From a virus: a stretch of DNA of 33,075 nt. The stretch spans positions 1-33,075 of the IMG/VR virus record IMGVR_UViG_3300037112_000107, one strand, 5' to 3'. Positions 262 through 22,880 of the stretch are shown piece after piece. A program made the position numbers and the translations under genes. Every line of letters starts with the position of its first letter. Within the stretch, counting starts at the first letter, position 1. The notes below the pieces were generated by a model. The model was given only the letters and a program-made list of their open reading frames with translations. It did no database searches and was not told where the DNA came from.

Positions 262-726
262 TTAGACAGGCCTGCTCCGGCCCATGCCCTTGTCCATTGC
301 ATCGTTAGCCAGCTTGTCGGCTTGCTTGTTGCCGCCGCGCAGGGTGTGGCGGATCTCGAAACTGGCAACGTTCCGAGAGAGGCGGCGGGCCTCTTCAAAC
401 AGCGGTCGCAGGATGGGGCTGGCGACTTTGTACTTGCCCTGCATCTGCTTGACCATCAATTCGGAGTCGGAGACCACGCGCAGGTGTTTCACGTTGTGTT
501 CGACGGACCACCGGAGCACGCCCAGGAGGCCGGAGTACTCGGCGTAGTTGTTGGTCTGGATGCCGAGGTACTCGCTTAGTTCGGCGACAACGTGGCCTTT
601 TGAATCTTCAATAACGGCGCCATAGCCCGAGGGGCCGGGATTGCTGCGGGAACCGCCGTCGCAGTGGGCAGTGAACCGCGGGCTGGGCGCGCCGGCGGCA
701 GGATCAGGGAATAGGGATTCGTTCAT
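262..726 (-). CDS. Ribonuclease HI family protein
   Basis: This 154-residue protein should cut the RNA strand of RNA-DNA hybrids in the cytoplasm. All four acidic active-site positions are visible: Asp in HCDGGSRSNPG, Glu in NNYAEYSG, Asp in VVSDSEL and Asp in NKQADKLAN. Length matches the compact bacterial HI family. The ATG at 726 is chosen because the frame upstream of it runs through the dispersed repeat at 778-824, and GGAA precedes it. It is transcribed leftwards and appears to be a host gene outside the prophage. It could equally be called an RnhA/YpdQ-type paralogue, so no symbol is given. Confidence 0.9.
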   Translation of the reverse strand: MNESLFPDPAAGAPSPRFTAHCDGGSRSNPGPSGYGAVIEDSKGHVVAELSEYLGIQTNNYAEYSGLLGVLRWSVEHNVKHLRVVSDSELMVKQMQGKYKVASPILRPLFEEARRLSRNVASFEIRHTLRGGNKQADKLANDAMDKGMGRSRPV

Positions 727-777
727 TGCTTCCAGTGTAGCGTGTGGCCCGATGGGTGGGGATGGTCGAGGTTTGTG

Positions 778-824
778 GTTTCCCACCCATTTCGCAAAGA
801 ACGCGAAATGGATGGGGCACGTGT
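778..824. repeat. Short dispersed hairpin repeat
   Basis: The CCCACC ... GGATGGGGCAC frame of the repeats at 1-112 and 144-255 recurs here, but the inner arms read ATTTCGC and GCGAAAT instead of CTTGCGCT and AGCGCAAG. The arms changed together, so the hairpin is kept. It sits upstream of the ribonuclease HI start. Confidence 0.6.
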
Positions 825-828
825 GAAT

Positions 829-854
829 ACAGGAATTGTATTGCACTGGTGGGA
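829..854 (+). repeat. 26-bp direct repeat, copy 1
   Basis: The sequence starting ACAGGAATTG and ending CACTGGTGGGA is repeated at 935-960 with few mismatches, 106 bases further right. It lies in non-coding DNA between the host gene and the presumed prophage end. It is too long to be a 5-bp Mu target duplication. Confidence 0.7.
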
Positions 855-934
855 TATGACGGGAGAAGGCGGGTATCGTCGGGTTTGACGCGGGTGAAAC
901 GCGCTTTTCCACAGCTCGACGGCGGAAATTAAAA

Positions 935-2707: not shown

Positions 2708-2914
2708 TCATTTAGACCTTGGCAGCCGGCGCATCGGCTCCGGGTGTAGCTTGACGTGGCCGATGTGCCAGCCTTTGCAGAAGCGGCAGAGATAGACCTG
2801 TAACTCGCCAGCCAGCGCGCCGAAATTGCGCCGCGATCCATTGAGCGCGGCGCAGGCCTTGCGCTGGCTTCCGTGCCGAATCTTTCCGAGGCAGGAACGC
2901 TCCTCGCTGGTCAT
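2708..2914 (-). CDS. Small protein with a CxxC-WHIGH motif
   Basis: The protein has 68 residues. An early KIRHGSQRKACAAL helix is followed by YLCRFCKGWHIGHVKL. The CxxCxxWHxGH motif recurs in small actinobacterial and phage proteins and probably binds zinc. The ATG at 2914 has GAGGT upstream and overlaps the stop of the ASCH gene (ATGA). Function is unknown; nucleic-acid binding is a guess from the fold. Confidence 0.75.
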   Translation of the reverse strand: MTSEERSCLGKIRHGSQRKACAALNGSRRNFGALAGELQVYLCRFCKGWHIGHVKLHPEPMRRLPRSK

Positions 2915-3324
2915 AGCTGAGACCTCACCAGACCGTCTGGCACGCCGAAGAATCCCAACGCGCCTTTGTACGGGATGGGCGTCGCAAAAGTCACCGGATC
3001 GCGCAACACAAAGCCGTAGTTACCGACAAACCATGGGCTGCAACTGAGGGCTACGCAATCGACGATCTCCACTGAGCCAACGATGCAACCGCCGCATTCG
3101 CGCATTTCTGGAAAATTAGGTGGTGGCACGTTTGCCGCACCCGCCTCTGCGGCCATCTCTCCCGCGTCCCAATCGTCAAGTGCGATGTCTTTCTGTATCC
3201 ATGATTTACTGGCGTGGATCAGCACGCGGCCGCGGACGCGCGTCGGCCAGTCCCGATTCTCAATGTCTTTGCCGGCGTGCAGGATGTACCACCACCAGGG
3301 CGCTCGTATGCTCAGGGCTTTCAC
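2911..3324 (-). CDS. ASCH-domain protein
   Basis: This 137-residue protein opens with KALSIRAPWWWYILHAGKDIENRDWPTR, the typical ASCH start with its IExR-like element. It continues with RGRVLIHAS and ends FGVPDGLVRS. ASCH domains have a PUA-like fold, bind RNA or modified nucleosides, and are frequent in phages. The start is a GTG at 3324 with GGAGG six bases upstream, overlapping the stop of the receiver-like gene (GTGA). The much longer open frame upstream has no coding character of its own. The partner RNA is unknown. Confidence 0.85.
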   Translation of the reverse strand: MKALSIRAPWWWYILHAGKDIENRDWPTRVRGRVLIHASKSWIQKDIALDDWDAGEMAAEAGAANVPPPNFPEMRECGGCIVGSVEIVDCVALSCSPWFVGNYGFVLRDPVTFATPIPYKGALGFFGVPDGLVRSQL

Positions 3325-3749
3325 GCAAGCCTCCGATCTTCCGCGCACATCACGGGCACAGAGATAACAGGCATCTTCTTCCGTGGGCCGCGCTTCTTCG
3401 CGGTGAGGCGCCTTACCCATTCGAGCAGCGCAAACGACGAGCAACCGCCGCGCAGCAGCACGGCATCCGCGTTGAGGCCCTCTGGCGACGCCGGGAGATC
3501 TGGGGCCAACACCAGGGAGTGCATAGCGGAGCCGATCTCCCAAGCCTGGTCGAGCAGACGCTCGATGTCCGGCAATCGCGAATAATCGCAGAACAGCAGA
3601 TCGTAGGTTTGCGCGCGAAGATGCTCGACCGCCGGCTCCGCGCCAAGCACTTCCGTGACGGCGTAGCCGTTGGTGTGGAGCATGAACTTCAGAATGGAGA
3701 GCCGGTCCTCCGATGCGCCCACCAACAGAATCTTCTTCTTTGGCCTCAT
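3321..3749 (-). CDS. Degenerate CheY-like receiver protein
   Basis: The protein has 142 residues. Residues 5-118 fit the response-regulator fold: KKILLV as strand 1, then YDLLFCDYS with Asp55 at the phosphoacceptor place, a SLVLAP strand, and ADAVLLRGG before the last helix. The acidic pair after strand 1 is replaced by GAS, and the late Lys by Arg, so phosphorylation is doubtful. There is no output domain. Similar degenerate receivers are, from memory, numerous in acidobacteria, suggesting a host-derived gene. It overlaps both neighbours by four bases and has an AAAGGAG site. Confidence 0.75.
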   Translation of the reverse strand: MRPKKKILLVGASEDRLSILKFMLHTNGYAVTEVLGAEPAVEHLRAQTYDLLFCDYSRLPDIERLLDQAWEIGSAMHSLVLAPDLPASPEGLNADAVLLRGGCSSFALLEWVRRLTAKKRGPRKKMPVISVPVMCAEDRRLA

Positions 3750-3988
3750 GCGGTGACTCCTTTCGGGCGGTTTGCTTTCTGGCGCTGGAGGCCGTAAGCA
3801 AAAGCTAGAGCCAGCGTTGAATGGAGTCGGTTGGTTTCTACGGGGACTTCGGGGATATCCTGAGTAGTTGGCGTCACGCCGGCGATAGCGAGAGACATCA
3901 TGAAGGCGAGCGCTGAAGGTTCCATCGCCTGGAAGTTGGCGAGTGCCTTTGTAAAAGTCGGGGTTTGAAGTGCTTTTATTAATCTCAT
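3746..3988 (-). CDS. Hypothetical early protein (80 aa)
   Basis: I do not recognise this protein. It begins MRLIKALQTPTFTKALANF, has a mildly hydrophobic middle (ALAFMMSLAIAGV) and a basic end. It is probably a small helical cytoplasmic protein. The ATG at 3988 overlaps the upstream stop (ATGA) and has GAGGTGA upstream; the frame before it lies inside the neighbour. Confidence 0.65.
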   Translation of the reverse strand: MRLIKALQTPTFTKALANFQAMEPSALAFMMSLAIAGVTPTTQDIPEVPVETNRLHSTLALAFAYGLQRQKANRPKGVTA

Positions 3989-7568: not shown

Positions 7569-7870
7569 CGGCCACCTCCTAGCACGCGCTCGACGGCGCC
7601 GCCGGGCAGAAAAGCCGCGCCGATCTCGACAGCGAAGTAAAGAGCGGCCGCGATCACTGCCGCCTTCGTCCAGAGATCGCAGAGCTTGTGCAGGTGCGCC
7701 GAGGGTGTCCAGACTTCCCAGAAGGCTGCCCAGCGGCGCAGACAAGCCCAACGTGTACGCCGGCGCACGCATAGGATTCTGGCGAGCGGGTACTCACGCA
7801 TGGAGACTTCCAAATCTTCCGCGGACTCGATGATGAGGTTTTTGCCGGTGCCGAAAAATAGCTTTTTCAT
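7565..7870 (-). CDS. Small protein with one membrane segment
   Basis: The protein has 101 residues. A basic, Trp-rich middle precedes one likely membrane helix (KAAVIAAALYFAVEIGAAFL, about residues 69-88). It follows MuB directly with an ATGA overlap. No family is recognised. It could be an early inner-membrane protein, but nothing else supports a specific role. Confidence 0.55.
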   Translation of the reverse strand: MKKLFFGTGKNLIIESAEDLEVSMREYPLARILCVRRRTRWACLRRWAAFWEVWTPSAHLHKLCDLWTKAAVIAAALYFAVEIGAAFLPGGAVERVLGGGR

Positions 7871-8832
7871 GCCACGGCCTCAACTTTCTCGGCAATATCG
7901 TCCTGCGCGGCCAGTCCTTCGCGTATCTCGCGAACGGCGGCCATCAAACGGCCGATGCTGATGTAGCGCTGGGTTTTGCGGTCCACGCGGACTGCGATGG
8001 TGGCCAGCTCAATCTGCTGGCGGATCAGCGCGGAGTCGAGCGTGAGGCTGGACAATTCCGACTTCAGGATGCCCGCGGCCTCGTCGGCGGTGATGGCGGG
8101 CAGCGTGATCTTGTCGCTGATGCGGCGCTCCAGTTGCTCCAGCGTGCCGGCGAAGCGAGCGAATATCCTGTCAAGCTCGTGGCTGCCCGCAAAGCAGAGG
8201 GAGAAGCGCGGATCTTCATCGAGCAGCTCGCGGACAACCTCGAAGCAATCGATGGAGAGGTGCTGCGCCTCGTCGAAGTAAAGAACCACGCGCGCCCCGC
8301 GAAAATCGAAGCGGAGGTTATGAATCGCGCGGTCGATGGCCGTATCCGATTGCGTTCCGCAGGCGGTGGCCACGCGCTTCATCAGGTCGCGGGGCGAGAT
8401 GCGCGCGCGGCAATAGACGCGGAAGATGAATGTCTTCTGAGCGGCTGCGCGCTGGGCGTTGTGCTCGGCAATCAGGTAGCGGGATACGTCCGTCTTGCCC
8501 GAGCCAGGCGGGGCATAAACCATGTAAACTTGCGGCCGCTCCAACAGCCGGGCGAAGACGCCGCGCATGGCGCGCACAGTGCCGGTCTCGTAGATCTGCG
8601 TTGCGAATGGGGCTTCTGGCTCTACCGGGGTGTTTGCGACAAAGCCGGTGATGGCCGCGCAGATGCGCGAGGAGTTGGTGATGTTGCTGTAGTGGCCGTT
8701 CATGAACTGCGCGAGGGTGTTCGGCGAGTAGCCGATTCTCCGCGCGAAGTCCACCGGCGACATGCCGCTGCGAATCATGAAGTCGGACGCGAGCCGCTGT
8801 GCCTGCGCCGATGTCTGTGTTTGGTCGATCAT
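7867..8832 (-). CDS. MuB-like AAA ATPase, transposition target protein
   Basis: The protein has 321 residues. An N-terminal Cro-like HTH (about 20-60) is followed by an AAA module with Walker A APPGSGKT at 107-114, Walker B RVVLYFDEA at 181-189 and a sensor-like CFAGSHEL near 235. In Mu, B binds target DNA as an ATP-dependent filament, delivers it to MuA and gives target immunity. Size and the HTH-plus-AAA order agree with that family. It overlaps the end of the transposase gene (ATGA), so the two are translationally coupled. Confidence 0.92.
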   Translation of the reverse strand: MIDQTQTSAQAQRLASDFMIRSGMSPVDFARRIGYSPNTLAQFMNGHYSNITNSSRICAAITGFVANTPVEPEAPFATQIYETGTVRAMRGVFARLLERPQVYMVYAPPGSGKTDVSRYLIAEHNAQRAAAQKTFIFRVYCRARISPRDLMKRVATACGTQSDTAIDRAIHNLRFDFRGARVVLYFDEAQHLSIDCFEVVRELLDEDPRFSLCFAGSHELDRIFARFAGTLEQLERRISDKITLPAITADEAAGILKSELSSLTLDSALIRQQIELATIAVRVDRKTQRYISIGRLMAAVREIREGLAAQDDIAEKVEAVA

Positions 8833-10688
8833 GCTTTCTGTCTCTCCAAAAAGATGCGTGCGGCCTCTGCCGGCGTCGCTGGCCGGTTCGAGGGTTGATT
8901 GTCAGGGGACAGTTTTGCGAGGTGGGGATTGCGCTGGGTAATTACGTCAGAAATATCGGTATCGGCGGGGAGTTGCAGCCGCCGGGCCATTTGCTCCAGC
9001 GGCGAGAGCGCGCCATTTTGCCGCGCAACCAGGCTGATTGTGCCCAGCGCTTCGCGCGTCTGCTTTTCCAGGTGGCGGCGCTGCCTCATGCTCTCGGAGA
9101 TCAGCGACTGTGTGTGCGGGTCGCTGGGCGCGAAGCGCACGAGTTCCTCGCTTTGAAGGGCGCAGATAAAGTTGCCGTCGAGATCGAGCGCGGCGGCGTC
9201 TTCCGGCGCGCCTGGCTCGTAGGCGATCAGGATGTCGCACTGATTCAAGTTGTGCAGCGCGGCGAAGCCGGCCTGGTCAGCGGGCACGTAGCGGCGATTG
9301 TTCAAACGAACAGCACATTCCTGAACGATTCTGCGCTCGTGTTCCGCCATTAAAAGAGCGAGTGTCGCCGGATCGGGCGCGGGACGCTGGTTGGGGTTGA
9401 GATTGTTTTCAAATACCTGGCGCGGTGTCCCGCCGTCCATGCCAATTCCCGTGTGAGGCGAATCCGCATATTCCTCCATCCAGGCCAGGCAGGCGCCGAT
9501 GAAGACTGAAGCCTTGGGATGCTTCGACTCGGCAACGCGGCCATGGCGGGTCAGCTTGCGGTGTTCCATCATCGCGAGTGAAGTGGAATCGGGACGCGTG
9601 AAGGGGCTGCCTGTGGTGTATGTCGGCCAGCATTTATCGAAGTGCTCGTGGACGGTGCCCCAGAAGCGCTCTATGTGCTTCGCCTGCCCGTGATAAGGCG
9701 CGCAATGCGTTAAGGCAGTCCCCACGCGCGCCAGAAAGCCGGTGGCCTCGATGGACTCAAGCTCAGCCTTGCGCCAATCCTGCGGCGCCAGTGGCGACTC
9801 CATCATGTAGCCGGGGGTCGCGCCTTTGCCCACCTTGCGATAATCCTTGCCGTTGTCAACGTAGACACATTCGGGAGGGCCGTACTTCGTAATGCCGCGG
9901 CGCATGGCGGCGGCGATAGAGCGCGAGCTGCCTTCCCAGCACCAGCTCGCGCCCATCGGCATCCGCGAGCGATAGTCGAGCCATCCGGTGAGCCGTATGC
10001 GGACCGGCGAACCCCACTCGACATTCGAGAAGCAATCGTTGGCGCACTCCACGTCGTGGATCATGTGATCCCCAACCCACACAGCGTTGGCGTACACGTC
10101 GGTGAAGCCGCGCGTCAGATAGGGGCTCATGCGTTCCTGGTATGCTTTGCGGCCTTCACGGGCATAGACGACGAGCGACGGCGGCATGGATTTTAACCAC
10201 GCTCTCACCGTCTCGTATGAAGGCAAATCTTCTTGGGGGACTTCGATCATTTCGCGGTTGCTCACGATGTTCTCGTGGGCGACGCGGCAGGACATGCGCT
10301 GGTCCAAAAAAAGAAATGCGGCGAGCCACGCGGCCCGAGGATAGGCCTCGAAGAATCTTGAAGTGTGCGCGTCTTTTCGTTTACGGTCAGCCAGCGCCGC
10401 AAAGCCGCCTGCCTTGTATGCGCGCAGCCAGTTGTAGAGCGTGCCTCGGGAGATGCTGTGCGCTTCGGCGGCGTACTCCACCATCAGGGACGCGCTCGTG
10501 ACAGGCGTTCCATCTCGCAGTTGCAGACGGCCAAACCGCGCGGGATCGCGTTGATATTCCAGAATCTGCTGCACGACGGCGAGCCGCTGGGAGGCTTGCT
10601 CCTGGTCTCGCGGCGAGGGCAGCAAAATTCGCTGAGGCGAAGCAACAGGCACGGACATCGGCAAGCAAATCGAGAGTTGAGTGCTCAA
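8829..10688 (-). CDS. MuA-like DDE transposase
   Basis: This 619-residue protein joins phage ends to target DNA for integration and replicative transposition. N-terminal HTH domains (about 65-165) precede an RNase-H-like core with catalytic Asp207 (VWVGDHM), Asp278 (VYVDNG) and Glu340 (HIERFWG). A C-terminal helical part would contact MuB. Length is close to Mu A. The start is taken as TTG at 10688, in a TTGA overlap with the PAP2 gene behind AAGGGG; ATG 10658 is possible but lacks a visible ribosome-binding site. It defines the element as a transposable phage. Confidence 0.93.
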   Translation of the reverse strand: MSTQLSICLPMSVPVASPQRILLPSPRDQEQASQRLAVVQQILEYQRDPARFGRLQLRDGTPVTSASLMVEYAAEAHSISRGTLYNWLRAYKAGGFAALADRKRKDAHTSRFFEAYPRAAWLAAFLFLDQRMSCRVAHENIVSNREMIEVPQEDLPSYETVRAWLKSMPPSLVVYAREGRKAYQERMSPYLTRGFTDVYANAVWVGDHMIHDVECANDCFSNVEWGSPVRIRLTGWLDYRSRMPMGASWCWEGSSRSIAAAMRRGITKYGPPECVYVDNGKDYRKVGKGATPGYMMESPLAPQDWRKAELESIEATGFLARVGTALTHCAPYHGQAKHIERFWGTVHEHFDKCWPTYTTGSPFTRPDSTSLAMMEHRKLTRHGRVAESKHPKASVFIGACLAWMEEYADSPHTGIGMDGGTPRQVFENNLNPNQRPAPDPATLALLMAEHERRIVQECAVRLNNRRYVPADQAGFAALHNLNQCDILIAYEPGAPEDAAALDLDGNFICALQSEELVRFAPSDPHTQSLISESMRQRRHLEKQTREALGTISLVARQNGALSPLEQMARRLQLPADTDISDVITQRNPHLAKLSPDNQPSNRPATPAEAARIFLERQKA

Positions 10689-11500
10689 AGAGCGGCCCCT
10701 TGCAATTGCTGGTCAAGAAAGGTTTCTGTGTGTTGGCTGGCCGCTGAGCGCGCGGCAAATCTATCCACGGCCCAAACCACCGCTGCGGTGTAAGGCACCG
10801 CGCAGATCAGATCGAAAAGGTAGTGTTGGCCCGACCCTAAGGTGGCGAGGACGATCAGCGCGGCGTAGACGCCGCCGAGGGCGCGGCCCCAGTTCCAACG
10901 GCGAAGGAACCACAAAACCAAAAGAGCGCTGGACATGTGAACGGAAGGCACTCCGTTGGGCGCGGCGGAGATGGCCAGAAGATGCGGAACAAGGCCGGCC
11001 GTCGGCAGTGCCGGGAAAGATGGAAACGCGAACGCCGGGCCGCATACGGGAAAGAGCAAATAGATCGGGAGCGCGGCGAAGAGGTTCAGCAGGAAGGTCT
11101 GCGCCACGCGAATCGCTTCCCGCTCGGGGCGCAGCAGCAGCGTGGCGGCGAAGGCGCCGAGCATGGCCATGGGCAAAAGCCCGTAGCTCACGCTGACCAG
11201 AGTTCTGAGCCAGAGATGCACGGCCACGAGCTGGCCCAGGTGAAAGCTCGGCGAGCCGAAGAGGCGGTCGAACTGATAGATATAAGCGTCCAACTTGAGC
11301 GGACGCAACTGCGATAGCGAATTGGCCGTGAGCTGCGAGAGGATTCCCGCGGGTTCGATCAACAGCGCGGCGACGAAAAGCCACTCTGTCTGTTTGCGCG
11401 CGGCGGGAGCGAGAAACCAGCGCACGGCCAGCAAAGGCACGATTAGCGCGGTCACGGCAACGCCCGGATAAATAGTCAGGAAGGATGCAAAAGGGTTCAC
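10685..11500 (-). CDS. PAP2-family membrane phosphatase/phosphotransferase
   Basis: This 271-residue protein has about six hydrophobic segments. The lipid-phosphatase signature is split as in the family: GVPSVHMS at 183-190 (His188) and GSGQHYLFD at 222-230 (His225, Asp230). FPVCGPAFAFP just before it recalls the branch related to inositol-phosphorylceramide synthases. It should act on a phospholipid or polyprenyl phosphate at the inner membrane; the substrate is unknown. It lies between the Ner-like gene and the transposase, joined by 4-base overlaps on both sides (GTG start, TTGA end). Such an enzyme is unexpected here and may be a cargo gene. Confidence 0.8.
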   Translation of the reverse strand: MNPFASFLTIYPGVAVTALIVPLLAVRWFLAPAARKQTEWLFVAALLIEPAGILSQLTANSLSQLRPLKLDAYIYQFDRLFGSPSFHLGQLVAVHLWLRTLVSVSYGLLPMAMLGAFAATLLLRPEREAIRVAQTFLLNLFAALPIYLLFPVCGPAFAFPSFPALPTAGLVPHLLAISAAPNGVPSVHMSSALLVLWFLRRWNWGRALGGVYAALIVLATLGSGQHYLFDLICAVPYTAAVVWAVDRFAARSAASQHTETFLDQQLQGAAL

Positions 11501-12341: not shown

Positions 12342-12370
12342 ACCATATAACCGCAGGTATGTGATGTCAA
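12342..12370 (-). promoter_or_regulatory. Early leftward promoter
   Basis: On the minus strand TTGACA (12370-12365) and TATGGT (12347-12342) are separated by 17 bases, a near-perfect housekeeping-sigma promoter. It points into the Ner-like gene and the whole transposition operon. The -35 box overlaps the start codon of the divergent repressor gene, and the spacer contains one of the candidate operators. Confidence 0.85.
12347..12360 (+). promoter_or_regulatory. Candidate operator 1
   Basis: ATAACCGCAGGTAT lies within the -35/-10 spacer of the early promoter and is repeated 32 bases away (12379-12392) with one difference, about three helical turns. Binding of the repressor or Ner-like protein here would block the early promoter. 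This is inferred from repeat and position. Confidence 0.55.
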
Positions 12371-12897
12371 GCGAAAAAATAACCACAGGTATCTGTCTCG
12401 ATGCGGAGCAGTCGCTAGTCCAAAAAATTAAGGCATTGCGGGACACTAGACGTCTGAAACAGATAGACTTGGCGGAATTCTGCGGAGTGACACAAGTATC
12501 TGTATCTAAATGGGAAAAGAGCAGGAAGCCGGCGATTCCATCAGCTAAAAATCTCCTCAGGTTGGCGGAATTGGTTCCAGAAGAAGAGCGCCCATGGTGG
12601 AGAGCTCGCGCCTCAGAGCGCGTTGGATTCGAGGTTCAAGGGCTACAAGCTGTATCCCCATCGCCGACGGGACGAAAGAAGAGCGAACGGGTGGACGCGA
12701 AATTGCTGGCGCAGGTGCTTGAAGCGGTGGAAAGGGCGATGAACAAAGCCGGCGGATATTTTTCAACGAAGATTCGGGCGGATGTTTTAGCCTGGGCGTA
12801 CGATAGCTGGCGGGAGAACGGGCATCTGGAAGCCTCACAGATCGAAGCCAAAGTCCAGGAGGCCCGAAGTCCATCGAACCGGAAAGTGAGAACGTGA
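12364..12897 (+). CDS. XRE-family phage repressor
   Basis: This 177-residue protein has an XRE helix-turn-helix at about residues 20-70 (LKQIDLAEFCGVTQVSVSKW). There is no LexA-type peptidase domain, so induction by self-cleavage is unlikely. The C-terminal 45 residues form a helical domain that may bring subunits together. It is transcribed away from the early operon, the usual place for a lysogeny repressor. By eye its base composition is clearly less GC-rich than the structural genes. It overlaps the MuF-like gene (TGATG), so the two should be expressed together in the lysogen. Confidence 0.82.
   Translation: MSSEKITTGICLDAEQSLVQKIKALRDTRRLKQIDLAEFCGVTQVSVSKWEKSRKPAIPSAKNLLRLAELVPEEERPWWRARASERVGFEVQGLQAVSPSPTGRKKSERVDAKLLAQVLEAVERAMNKAGGYFSTKIRADVLAWAYDSWRENGHLEASQIEAKVQEARSPSNRKVRT
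12379..12392 (+). promoter_or_regulatory. Candidate operator 2
   Basis: ATAACCACAGGTAT is the second copy of the motif and lies inside the first codons of the repressor gene. A weaker relative (ACACAAGTATCTG) occurs at 12490-12502, also in the repressor gene. Confidence 0.5.
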
Positions 12898-13502
12898 TGG
12901 CAGGATTTAACTTCAACTTAGAAACCGACTATGACATGGGGCAGCACGCAATGTCGATGGTGGAACAGGTTCTCCGTTGGGATGGAATTTATCGCGCCGA
13001 TGCGGTTCCGGTAATTGCTCAGCACATCCTTAAAAGCGCAAAGAAAGGCGAGACGGAACGAGATTTCCGGCGTTGGTGCAATACGCCCGATGCACCATTC
13101 TGCATATCCAGTTGGCAAGAGTACGCAACGCCACATTCGGATTCCAGAAAATGGCCAGAGATACTCTTCACTAGCGTTGTTTTGGATATTTACGCGTCTC
13201 ATCGATATAACCAGATCAGAGAGTTGTCGAAAGACGATTTGCCTTATTGGCAGCTTGACTGTATGTCCCAGTACTGCAAGAAGCATTCATCGCTTGATCA
13301 ATATATCGCTCGCCCGGATGATCCAATTTGGGAAGACATCTTTCCACCGAACGGCTGGATGTGTGGATGCTCGGTTTTGCCCATCATGGATTTCGACGTT
13401 CCTCCGCGTAAACGGATTGGACGCCCCGTATCCGAAGAGTTACGCACACAGTGCCGAAATTGGTTGCAGACGCGCCCGGATCATATTTTGAAGTTGCTTT
13501 AA
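12897..13502 (+). CDS. Stand-alone MuF-like domain protein in repressor operon
   Basis: Most of this 201-residue protein matches the C-terminal half of the head protein at 22053-22880. GETERDF aligns with GGTRDDF, LPYWQ (115-119) is identical, HSSLD aligns with HASLD, DPIW with DPVW, and PPNGWMCGC (150-158) with PPSGFNCRC. The Arg before the conserved His and the Arg of CRC are changed to Lys and Gly. The N-terminal region of the virion protein is missing. It shares the lower GC content of the repressor and overlaps it. It may act on incoming phage heads (superinfection interference), which is inference. Confidence 0.8.
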   Translation: MAGFNFNLETDYDMGQHAMSMVEQVLRWDGIYRADAVPVIAQHILKSAKKGETERDFRRWCNTPDAPFCISSWQEYATPHSDSRKWPEILFTSVVLDIYASHRYNQIRELSKDDLPYWQLDCMSQYCKKHSSLDQYIARPDDPIWEDIFPPNGWMCGCSVLPIMDFDVPPRKRIGRPVSEELRTQCRNWLQTRPDHILKLL

Positions 13503-13762
13503 TTCCGCAATCATCGAGCCCCTTTTCGCCGCTCACCACGACGCGCATCATTCCAGCTATCGCACCTTGAACACCTCTTCCATCACGCGGCGAAGCCGCG
13601 TTCTATTCTGCACACTAACCTGAACGGCAAGCACCGCCAAATTCCGAAAGGAGACAGGCGGAGAGCCAGAGCAGACGAGTGTCCGTGGGGTTGGAGGCAG
13701 TGCGGTAACACGCTCCAATCCCCGGCCTCCGAAAAACAAGGAAGAGGGAGCTTCCCACCACC
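13503..13762. other. Structured intergenic region before the lysis genes
   Basis: No gene is seen on either strand in these 260 bases. They hold a compact stem-loop (13585-13601), a longer imperfect fold around 13692-13730 (TTGGAG and CTCCAA arms), and TTCCAGCTATCGCAC at 13551, which recurs with one change before the protease gene. The late promoter for the lysis block probably lies here, but no clear -35/-10 pair is visible. Confidence 0.5.
13585..13601 (+). terminator. Possible terminator of the repressor operon
   Basis: ACGCGGC-GAA-GCCGCGT forms a 7-bp stem followed by the moderately T-rich TCTATTCTG. It lies about 80 bases after the MuF-like stop codon. The T tract is weak, so it may be a poor terminator. 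Confidence 0.4.
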
Positions 13763-13990
13763 ATGAACATCAGAGGAAAATTCACCGTCCGCAGCCACAA
13801 GCACTTTCAGTCCGCCGATCCCTACGTCGAGATCGAGCTGTCAGCGCTCTATTCCAACACACCGGAAGACAACAGCTACGCCAAGTCAACCCCCAGCGGC
13901 TCCATCACCATGGCCGTCACCGTGCCCGAAGTGATTGCGACACTAGCCATCGGCAAGGTGTTCTACGTCGATTTCTCGCCCGCCGACTGA
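13763..13990 (+). CDS. Small conserved phage protein (75 aa)
   Basis: The protein has the order RGKFTVRS, a central EDNSYAKSTPSGSITM and a final GKVFYVDFSPAD. This matches a family of short phage proteins I recall with (E)DxSFxxxTPSG and GKxYYVDFTPA motifs, mostly beta strand and of unknown function. A purine-rich GGAAGAGGGAGC precedes the ATG. It is the first gene of the late lysis and accessory block. Confidence 0.7.
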   Translation: MNIRGKFTVRSHKHFQSADPYVEIELSALYSNTPEDNSYAKSTPSGSITMAVTVPEVIATLAIGKVFYVDFSPAD

Positions 13991-15706: not shown

Positions 15707-15958
15707 ATGGCGGTACGCGTCACATTCAGTTCGATCACGCTGATGAGATACCATGCGGTCCGCGCGCGCATCCGGGCGCAATCGGAGAAGACGGACTGTG
15801 TGGGCAATACGGGAACGGCGACGGGCGACAAAATCACCATCGCGTGGACCTACGACGAAGGCGCGCAGAAGTTGGCGTTCACCTGCACCGAGCGCCCCTG
15901 GTGGAAGTCAGAGGGCTTTGTGAGCAGCAAGATTCTCAGCCTGATGGAGGCGTTATGA
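15707..15958 (+). CDS. Small paralogue 2 (83 aa)
   Basis: The N-terminal 25 residues are a basic helix-strand (VRVTFSSITLMRYHAVRARI). The remainder is similar to the protein at 15372-15629. It ends in a helix (SSKILSLMEAL) and overlaps the start of the nuclease gene (ATGA). Function is unknown. Confidence 0.65.
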   Translation: MAVRVTFSSITLMRYHAVRARIRAQSEKTDCVGNTGTATGDKITIAWTYDEGAQKLAFTCTERPWWKSEGFVSSKILSLMEAL

Positions 15959-16542
15959 AGAAGCAAATTCGCGGATGGGTGTTGCTGGCGCTGGGGTTCG
16001 GCGTGGCCGTGTGGATGGCGAGCTGCCTGGCTTATGCGCAGCAGCCGTTGCCGTCGGGCACTTACTACTCGCCGGAGACGAATCTGGAAACGCAGGACGC
16101 GGCCGCGCTCGGCTCGGCGCACAAGACCATCGGCCTGGCGGCTTTTAGCCTGACGGACGAAGCGATTGTGAAAGTGCTGGCGGACCGGGCGGCGCATGGC
16201 GTCGAGGTGTTCATCTATCTCGACCGGGGCGAGCTGCAGGCGGAATGCCGGGGAGATGTAACTTGCGCGCGGATTCCGCTGCACGCGCTGATCGGTTTGA
16301 AAAATGTTCAGATCCGCGTCAAGCAATCCAAAGTTCTGATGCACCTGAAAAGCTATTGCGTCGATTCGGGCCTGGTGCGGGATGGGTCCGCCAACTTCTC
16401 GGAACAAGGGGAGGCTCGGCAGGACAACTCGGCGACATTTGCGACGGGCGCGGGGGGTACCAAGGCGTTCGTGGCGAAGTTCGCCGCGATGTGGGCGAGG
16501 CCGGACAATCTGACCGTCGCCCAGGCGGTGGCCGGCACCTGA
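15955..16542 (+). CDS. Secreted phospholipase-D-type (HKD) nuclease
   Basis: The protein has 195 residues. A signal peptide (about 1-28, ending AYA-QQ) precedes a single PLD domain. A complete HxKxxxxD motif is present (His130, Lys132, Asp137), followed by GSANFS at 144-149 and a late Asn158, as in the dimeric Nuc-type endonucleases. It may degrade nucleic acid, or less likely phospholipid, in the periplasm. MASC at 21-24 is a weak lipobox alternative. The start has GGAGG eight bases upstream. A secreted nuclease in a lysis block is unusual. Confidence 0.82.
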   Translation: MKKQIRGWVLLALGFGVAVWMASCLAYAQQPLPSGTYYSPETNLETQDAAALGSAHKTIGLAAFSLTDEAIVKVLADRAAHGVEVFIYLDRGELQAECRGDVTCARIPLHALIGLKNVQIRVKQSKVLMHLKSYCVDSGLVRDGSANFSEQGEARQDNSATFATGAGGTKAFVAKFAAMWARPDNLTVAQAVAGT

Positions 16543-16686
16543 GACCGGCAAAAGGCAAAAACGCGCCAGAAGGCGCTAGGACGCGTCGGGGGGGGGCAAA
16601 AGGTAGGTTGATGCCATCGGACCCCCTTGAACGGGCCGACACAAGCGGGAAAGCTGCTTTATGTGGCTTCTGAGACGTGGGAAGGA

Positions 16687-16941
16687 ATGGCGGAAATGGA
16701 AAATGCTCTCAAACCGAAAAGGATGTGGGTTGGTGGACCTCTCCGGAGGTTCTCTGGGGGCTCCGTGCCGGGGGCAAGGATGCCGCTCGCAACAGGGGGA
16801 TATGGAGGCGCTTATATCTGCGACAAATGCCAGAAGCCTGTTGATGGAGTTTACGAAGCCTCCGAGGGATGGATTTGCGGCGGTTGCAAAAGGAACGCAC
16901 CGAAGGAGTCCGAAGCGGAGCTGATCGCGGAAGCTGCTTGA
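16687..16941 (+). CDS. Small zinc-ribbon protein (84 aa)
   Basis: The C-terminal half reads YICDKCQKPVDGVYEASEGW followed by ICGGCKR, a clear four-Cys ribbon, and ends with an acidic helix. The N-terminal half is Gly/Pro/Arg-rich and poorly ordered. ATG 16687 and ATG 16696 are both possible; the AAGGA site suits the second better. A run of nine G at 16588-16596 lies upstream. Function is unknown. Confidence 0.6.
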   Translation: MAEMENALKPKRMWVGGPLRRFSGGSVPGARMPLATGGYGGAYICDKCQKPVDGVYEASEGWICGGCKRNAPKESEAELIAEAA

Positions 16942-22052: not shown

Positions 22053-22880
22053 TTGGCACTCGGCTCAATCCATCTCGTGCGCTCAGAGCAGACAAAGCTC
22101 GGCGATCTTCTGGCTCACCACCTGGCCGCTGCGAATCTGCTGGGCAGGCTGCATATCGCCGGCGTCGGGCTAAAGAAGCTGCGCCGTCCCGTGCACCTGG
22201 CCACCAGCTCGCGGCTGAAGAACTTTGCGGACGACGACGCCCAGGGCGACACGCTCAACGTCGGTTTCAGCTTCGATGTGCCTCCGGAGGGCGCGGTCGA
22301 GTACCTGCGCAATCTGACGCCGGTCACGCGGGATCTCTTCGACGGGCTGAGCAGCCAATACAGAAACGATGCCTTCACGGTGGCTGGGGTCAGCGACCAG
22401 AGGCTGATCGCGAAGATCCGCGACGCGCTGGAAGAGACCATGGCCAAAGGCGGAACGCGCGACGATTTTCACAAGGCCGTAGACGAGCTGACCTCGGACG
22501 CCGGCGTCGAGGATCTCGCGGCCTTCGAGCTGGACACCGTCTTCCAAACCAACGCGGGCAAAGCCTACAGCGCGGGCAGGCTTGAGCAGATGAAAGAGCC
22601 GGGCATGATGGATGCGCTGCCCTACTGGCAATACTGGACGGTCGGCGATCTGCGCGTGAGGCCGGCGCACGCGTCGCTGGATGGTTTTTGCGCGCGGGCT
22701 ATTGACCCAGTTTGGTTGAAGATTTATCCGCCCAGCGGCTTCAACTGCCGCTGCGCGGTCATCCCCGTGCTGCCCGAGGACGCGCCCGAGGGAAGCGATG
22801 AAGGCGGCATGGAAAGATTGCCCTTGCTGGCCCGGCTGGGAGTGCCCGAGCCTGGCTTCCACACGCTGTCTGGAGTGTAG
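22053..22880 (+). CDS. MuF minor head protein (Mu F/gp30)
   Basis: This 275-residue head-morphogenesis protein sits near the portal and may be ejected with DNA. The Phage_Mu_F domain fills the C-terminal half: FQTNAGKAYSAGR, LPYWQYWTV (from 189), RPAHASLDG with His206, DPVW, and PPSGFNCRC (226-234). The start is taken as TTG at 22053, two bases after the portal stop, with GGGAG upstream; no ATG fits. A shorter paralogue of its C-terminal domain lies at 12897-13502. Confidence 0.88.
   Translation: MALGSIHLVRSEQTKLGDLLAHHLAAANLLGRLHIAGVGLKKLRRPVHLATSSRLKNFADDDAQGDTLNVGFSFDVPPEGAVEYLRNLTPVTRDLFDGLSSQYRNDAFTVAGVSDQRLIAKIRDALEETMAKGGTRDDFHKAVDELTSDAGVEDLAAFELDTVFQTNAGKAYSAGRLEQMKEPGMMDALPYWQYWTVGDLRVRPAHASLDGFCARAIDPVWLKIYPPSGFNCRCAVIPVLPEDAPEGSDEGGMERLPLLARLGVPEPGFHTLSGV

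Follow-up and report, generated by a model that had tools for sequence, protein, structure and literature searches.

Introduction

MuF minor head proteins (PF04233; SPP1 gp7 and Mu gpF) are virion proteins that lie near the portal and are believed to enter the host cell (PMC5576092, PMC6316719). In SPP1, the portal binds gp7 strongly and directs it to the procapsid; assembly does not require gp7, and virions that lack it merely fall to ~25% infectivity (PMC6316719). Temperate phages have found an extra use for the MuF domain in the MuF polymorphic toxins (Jamet 2017, PMC5576092). Two muf genes in one phage are rare, since a survey counted 614 of them in 611 phage genomes (PMC5576092). Other prophage genes are expected to act in the lysogen on the virion pathway of an invader: Tab (JBD26) and Tai block the tail and, at least in some cases, come with late counter-defence genes (PMC10884400, PMC11364771). 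The Mu-like phage Fc02 makes a 7.9-kDa exclusion protein from an accessory gene that precedes the repressor and shares its transcript (PMC9936078).

Here we analysed a stretch of viral DNA of 33,075 nucleotides (the window), in which a stand-alone, N-terminally truncated MuF paralogue, named sMuF, lies directly behind the lysogeny repressor. To our knowledge, virion proteins are rarely re-used as lysogeny genes. In the literature searched, we found no account of a phage that retains a copied structural protein as cargo in its repressor operon and, as the preliminary description of this DNA had supposed, no described system using a stand-alone MuF domain in this way.

With the MuF minor head proteins, sMuF shares the homologous domain, the H-x-x-LDG, W and PPxGxxCxC core and the fold match; it differs in that it is neither after the portal nor late, belongs to a phage that has an ordinary MuF too, lacks the N-terminal region, carries C-x-x-H for R-x-x-H and has a new C-terminal tail. 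Unlike the polymorphic toxins, it has no C-terminal toxin domain and is a separate gene in the repressor operon. Like Tab and Tai, it belongs to a prophage and would be expected to work in the lysogen on the virion pathway of an invader; it differs in that no late counter-defence gene was found for it among the window genes up to the head genes and in being a copy of a virion protein, which Tab and Tai are not described to be in the available text (PMC10884400, PMC11364771). With the Fc02 gene it shares a position as an accessory gene of a Mu-like repressor operon. In location and behaviour it matches accessory genes already known from prophages.

Organization of the locus

The window holds a Mu-like transposable phage, and its relatives (designated by L numbers) are a family of Mu-like phages from metagenomes. 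Early genes run leftward, the repressor runs rightward, and late genes start from ~13763. The main features were as follows.

7867-8832, leftward: MuB, early gene
8829-10688, leftward: MuA, early gene
12342-12370, minus strand: divergent early promoter-like site TTGACA-17-TATGGT, with similar sites in L006, L008 and L023
12364-12897, plus strand: lysogeny repressor, XRE-type HTH (HTH_3 7e-9)
12882-13568, plus strand: block common to the window, L006 and L007 at 87% DNA identity; sMuF plus short edges
12895-12899, plus strand: TGATG, overlap of repressor stop and sMuF start (ATG 12897-12899 shares one base with TGA 12895-12897)
12897-13502, plus strand: sMuF, 201 aa, assigned by sequence and profile searches
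13275-13370, plus strand: codons C127 to C158 of sMuF (C127, H130, C156, C158), candidate metal site
13585-13601, plus strand: terminator-like hairpin (ACGCGGCGAAGCCGCGT, then TCTATTCT) separating sMuF from the late genes
22053-22880, plus strand: ordinary MuF (minor head protein), immediately following the portal gene (PF04233 4.8e-19, phrog_220 7.5e-47)

The repressor reading frame is open from 12280, and the ATG at 12364 was read from the sequence as its likeliest start. The TGATG overlap would be expected to couple translation of the repressor and sMuF. Homologs of this repressor lie upstream of sMuF in L006, L007 and L023; outside the 12882-13568 block, the upstream repressor and the downstream spacer had no match to L006 or L007.

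Several other genes of the window were recorded. A PAP2-family membrane protein is encoded between MuA and the repressor (10685-11500, minus strand), and one gene of the lysis and late region (15844-16542, plus strand) encodes a PLD-like protein that probably has a signal peptide. Two long open reading frames, 2911-3801 and 3321-3749, overlap on the minus strand in different frames; their matches, one to ASCH and one to a response regulator, are weak, and at least one frame may be no gene as called. At the far left, an RNase H-like gene (262-912, minus strand) stands in repeat-rich surroundings, possibly host DNA.

Relation of sMuF to MuF

The kinship with MuF asserted in the preliminary description was confirmed by BLASTP, Smith-Waterman alignment, phrog_220, profile-profile comparison and, across the family, PF04233. 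By BLASTP, sMuF matched the phage's own MuF at 62 bits (E 2e-16, 27% identity over 159 aa); the Smith-Waterman score was 148, against a mean of 30 (sd 4.6, maximum 58) for 1000 shuffles, and phrog_220 (minor head protein) was matched at 6.8e-18. The window sMuF alone matched PF04233 (Phage_Mu_F) at 6.6e-5 and 24.1 bits, under the Pfam curated cut-off of 29.6 bits; all eight members of the sMuF family matched this model (best 2.2e-10), and HHalign aligned the family with the MuF of the clade at 99.7% (E 1.4e-25). The predicted structure of sMuF (pLDDT 84, pTM 0.80) gave phage head-morphogenesis (MuF) proteins as its top matches among viral models; the predicted MuF model was weak (pLDDT 68). 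Neither sMuF nor MuF had a relative in the PDB by sequence or by fold, the fold search giving no significant match, and sequence matches to peptide:N-glycanase there (E ~0.003) were judged to be chance. The MuF domain was the sole domain found in sMuF, which matched no toxin or defence model. The ordinary MuF family is the parent family of sMuF; identity between sMuF and any MuF is only ~25%.

The alignment begins at the GFSF motif of MuF, where sMuF starts, so that ~70 N-terminal residues are absent, in agreement with the earlier report of a missing N-terminal part. The core of the domain is kept (H, LDG, AR, DPxW, PPxGxxCxC), PPxGxxCxC being present in the sMuF family; LPYWQ, previously listed as shared with MuF, was not conserved across that family. 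Two conserved Arg had been described as changed, of which the Arg of R-x-x-H separates the families and the other does not. MuF R203 corresponds to sMuF C127; Arg occupied this position in 30/30 aligned MuFs and C-x-x-H was found in 8/8 sMuF, with Cys there in none of the other MuF ORFs examined. The change from CRC to CGC was rejected as diagnostic because CGC occurs in some ordinary MuFs. Having lost the R-x-x-H Arg, sMuF may no longer bind MuF partners. C127, H130, C156 and C158 could form a metal-binding site, and the tail of sMuF is new and conserved, with invariant C186 and W189. A weak DUF4880 match to tail residues 177-196 in 3/8 members (best 7.9e-4) may be chance.

Occurrence and operon context

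When the repressor/MuF pairing was looked for in viral contigs, it was found in eight distinct phages (identity in parentheses): the window phage, L006 (87%), L007 (85%), L023 (51%), L008 (44%), L009 (43%), L025 (37%; a near relative in L024) and L026 (35%). Thus the relation to MuF holds and the pairing recurs, and the two findings named beforehand as speaking against the preliminary description, no relation to Phage_Mu_F and no recurrence, were not obtained. Wherever upstream DNA exists, sMuF is on the repressor strand, directly behind the repressor or one to two short genes later, and the repressors ahead of it are of two kinds, XRE-only and S24-type (L008, L026). Every carrier has an ordinary MuF after the portal, to which sMuF is extra, and in no carrier with upstream DNA does sMuF adjoin the portal in the late head operon.

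Strong terminators lie 31-34 nt past sMuF in L008 (10607-10633) and L009 (6848-6879), and the window has a weaker one; none was found after sMuF in L006 or L023. Given the stop/start overlap, the recurrent position behind the repressor and these terminators, sMuF is probably co-transcribed with the repressor, and its earlier assignment to the repressor operon is supported. Because it lies behind the repressor and before a terminator, we strongly infer that sMuF is made in the lysogen rather than late.

Relatives of sMuF were also sought outside this phage clade. In INPHARED, with one match per record, the matches listed were mostly annotated virion/MuF genes. A search of genome_contigs gave three weak matches among those listed, all ordinary MuFs, and a PPNGWxCGC scan of viral contigs revealed no new stand-alone family among the matches listed.

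Origin, selection and exchange

All sMuF form a single lineage with 100/100 support on a long stem branch (2.64 changes per site). On this sequence evidence, sMuF is a duplicate, of single origin, of the MuF of this phage clade. The similarity of each sMuF to the MuF of its own phage was marginal (permutation p 0.047) and owed mostly to L025 and L009; such cognate matching was set aside as support. The dN/dS of sMuF was 0.22 for the window-L006 pair and 0.10 for L008-L009, within a range of 0.1-0.26 where estimable; the value of 0.71 in the near-identical L006-L007 pair derives from few changes. The open reading frame was intact in eight phages, and the invariant motifs persisted down to ~36% identity. 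These data indicate that sMuF is under purifying selection.

Sister phages were counted where the repressor-to-late interval was visible in a scan with the ordinary MuF, and 21 had no sMuF; that scan alone gave ~4 carriers versus 21. On the portal tree, the distribution of sMuF requires no fewer than 5 gains or losses. A 10-kb stretch of head and tail genes is 97.4% identical between L099 and the window; L099 has another repressor and no sMuF, and its match to the window resumes at 95% directly after sMuF. In L006 and L007, sMuF is part of a cassette of ~1 kb:

L006 9601-10606 and L007 550-1556: two-gene cassette, single-TM membrane-protein gene plus sMuF

Identity across this cassette was 93-100%, versus 63-77% on either side, and its left edge fell at the conserved 3' end of the repressor (PSNRKV). 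The L006-L007 dS was 0.024 for sMuF versus 1.15 for MuF. The membrane protein upstream of sMuF in L009 had no detectable relation to that of L006/L007. Taken together, these patterns show that sMuF is dispensable for the virion and is exchanged between phages as a cassette, travelling as cargo in the repressor operon.

Proteins in the same slot of other phages were labelled by eye from sequence as zinc-ribbon, TM or secreted. They comprised zinc-ribbon membrane proteins (L099, L114, L118, L122, L132, L133, L143), single-TM proteins (L006, L007, L122, L131) and secreted proteins (L008, L106, L115), besides a D12 adenine methylase (L099, L143, L118). The L118 slot also holds a relative of the window PAP2 protein, 66% identical and on the other strand, so cargo changes place. 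Among the slot proteins scanned, no convincing Pfam or PADLOC match was obtained except for the methylase and one weak ORF6C match. Together, the repressor-to-late slot looks like a cargo operon expressed in lysogeny. Two recurrent arrangements were noted: the zinc-ribbon single-TM protein with the D12-class methylase (L099 722-1863, L143 931-2096, L118 224-2165), and a secreted-looking family of ~190-200 aa behind the repressor (L008 9339-9944, L106 1809-2366, L115 986-1573), in which L008 and L115 were 42% identical and the two members scanned had no convincing Pfam or PADLOC match.

Discussion

We tentatively favour, at somewhat below even chances, the explanation that sMuF in the lysogen hampers related phages that infect the cell, at a step that relies on MuF. 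The sequences show that a MuF duplicate was cut at its N-terminus just before GFSF, lost the Arg, gained Cys residues and a new tail, and now travels as exchangeable cargo in the repressor operon. Made in the lysogen, it would act on DNA entry, on an early function of injected MuF, or on the loading of MuF onto the portal, and infection or progeny infectivity would drop. Since SPP1 gp7 supports infectivity only, the step concerned would be DNA entry or particle quality, not assembly. Precedents are the exclusion gene on the repressor transcript of the transposable phage Fc02 (PMC9936078) and the block of virion assembly by the prophage proteins Tab and Tai (PMC10884400, PMC11364771). The lost Arg, the low identity to any MuF, the marginal match to the phage's own MuF and the still conjectural functions of the other cargo genes count against this explanation. 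Moreover, a defence against close relatives risks self-harm, and self-protection would need timing or a counter-gene; among the window genes up to the head genes, neither a protecting gene nor a late partner confined to sMuF carriers turned up, 13763-13990 and 16627-16941 being found only in the window phage.

It is rather unlikely, though deserving of weight, that sMuF is lysogenic-conversion cargo that does not act on phages and has turned the MuF fold to a task in the host or in regulation, such as binding a host protein or the repressor with the help of a metal. The changed motif with its candidate Cys/His site, the conserved tail with C186 and W189, the long stem branch and the diversity of neighbouring cargo types are all consistent with such a role, whereas MuF can still be recognised in the domain core and exclusion genes are known to reside in the repressor operons of transposable phages (PMC9936078).

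The preliminary description had proposed that a head-protein fragment made in the lysogen could poison head assembly. On that view sMuF would occupy the portal or another MuF site while a related incoming phage is assembled, and dead or weak particles would result. The retained core without the N-terminal part would suit such a decoy, as would the strong portal binding of SPP1 gp7 (PMC6316719), and prophage inhibitors of virion assembly are known (PMC10884400, PMC11364771). We nevertheless consider it improbable, and less likely than interference at a MuF-dependent step. Assembly proceeds without gp7 in SPP1 (PMC6316719), the invariant Arg is gone and sMuF has no clear likeness to its own phage's MuF. 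A poison of this kind would also hit the phage's own heads, because L099, without sMuF, has a near-identical head module; no anti-sMuF partner was found among the window genes up to the head genes, unlike for Tab and Tai (PMC10884400, PMC11364771).

MuFs being virion proteins near the portal that are believed to reach the host (PMC5576092, PMC6316719), sMuF might instead be an additional virion protein that is made early, is either packaged or carried over when the prophage is induced, and helps establish lysogeny once injected. Its position outside the late operon with a terminator between, its absence from 21 sisters, one of which has a 97.4% identical head module, and the loss of the MuF N-terminus and Arg make this very doubtful. 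Truncated and divergent as sMuF is, a decaying, functionless muf duplicate is scarcely credible, being rejected by purifying selection, the intact frame in eight phages, the invariant motifs and the conserved operon place.

To return to interference with incoming phages, a more specific form of it is that sMuF is a prophage restriction factor domesticated from the head protein of the phage itself, which would be the first of its kind. Expressed from the repressor operon, this rebuilt MuF would block MuF loading or the MuF-dependent entry of DNA in superinfecting phages. Retroviruses are restricted in a comparable way by endogenous proteins derived from capsids. We regard this form as unlikely on present evidence.

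One duplication has given rise to a distinct, selected and horizontally exchanged family sited with the repressor. Several families of the slot have no Pfam or PADLOC match, and the slot is therefore worth searching for new exclusion or conversion genes expressed in lysogeny. If its anti-phage action is true, sMuF would be a restriction factor built from a part of the phage's own head, and it would provide a handle on the role of the still poorly understood MuF domain.
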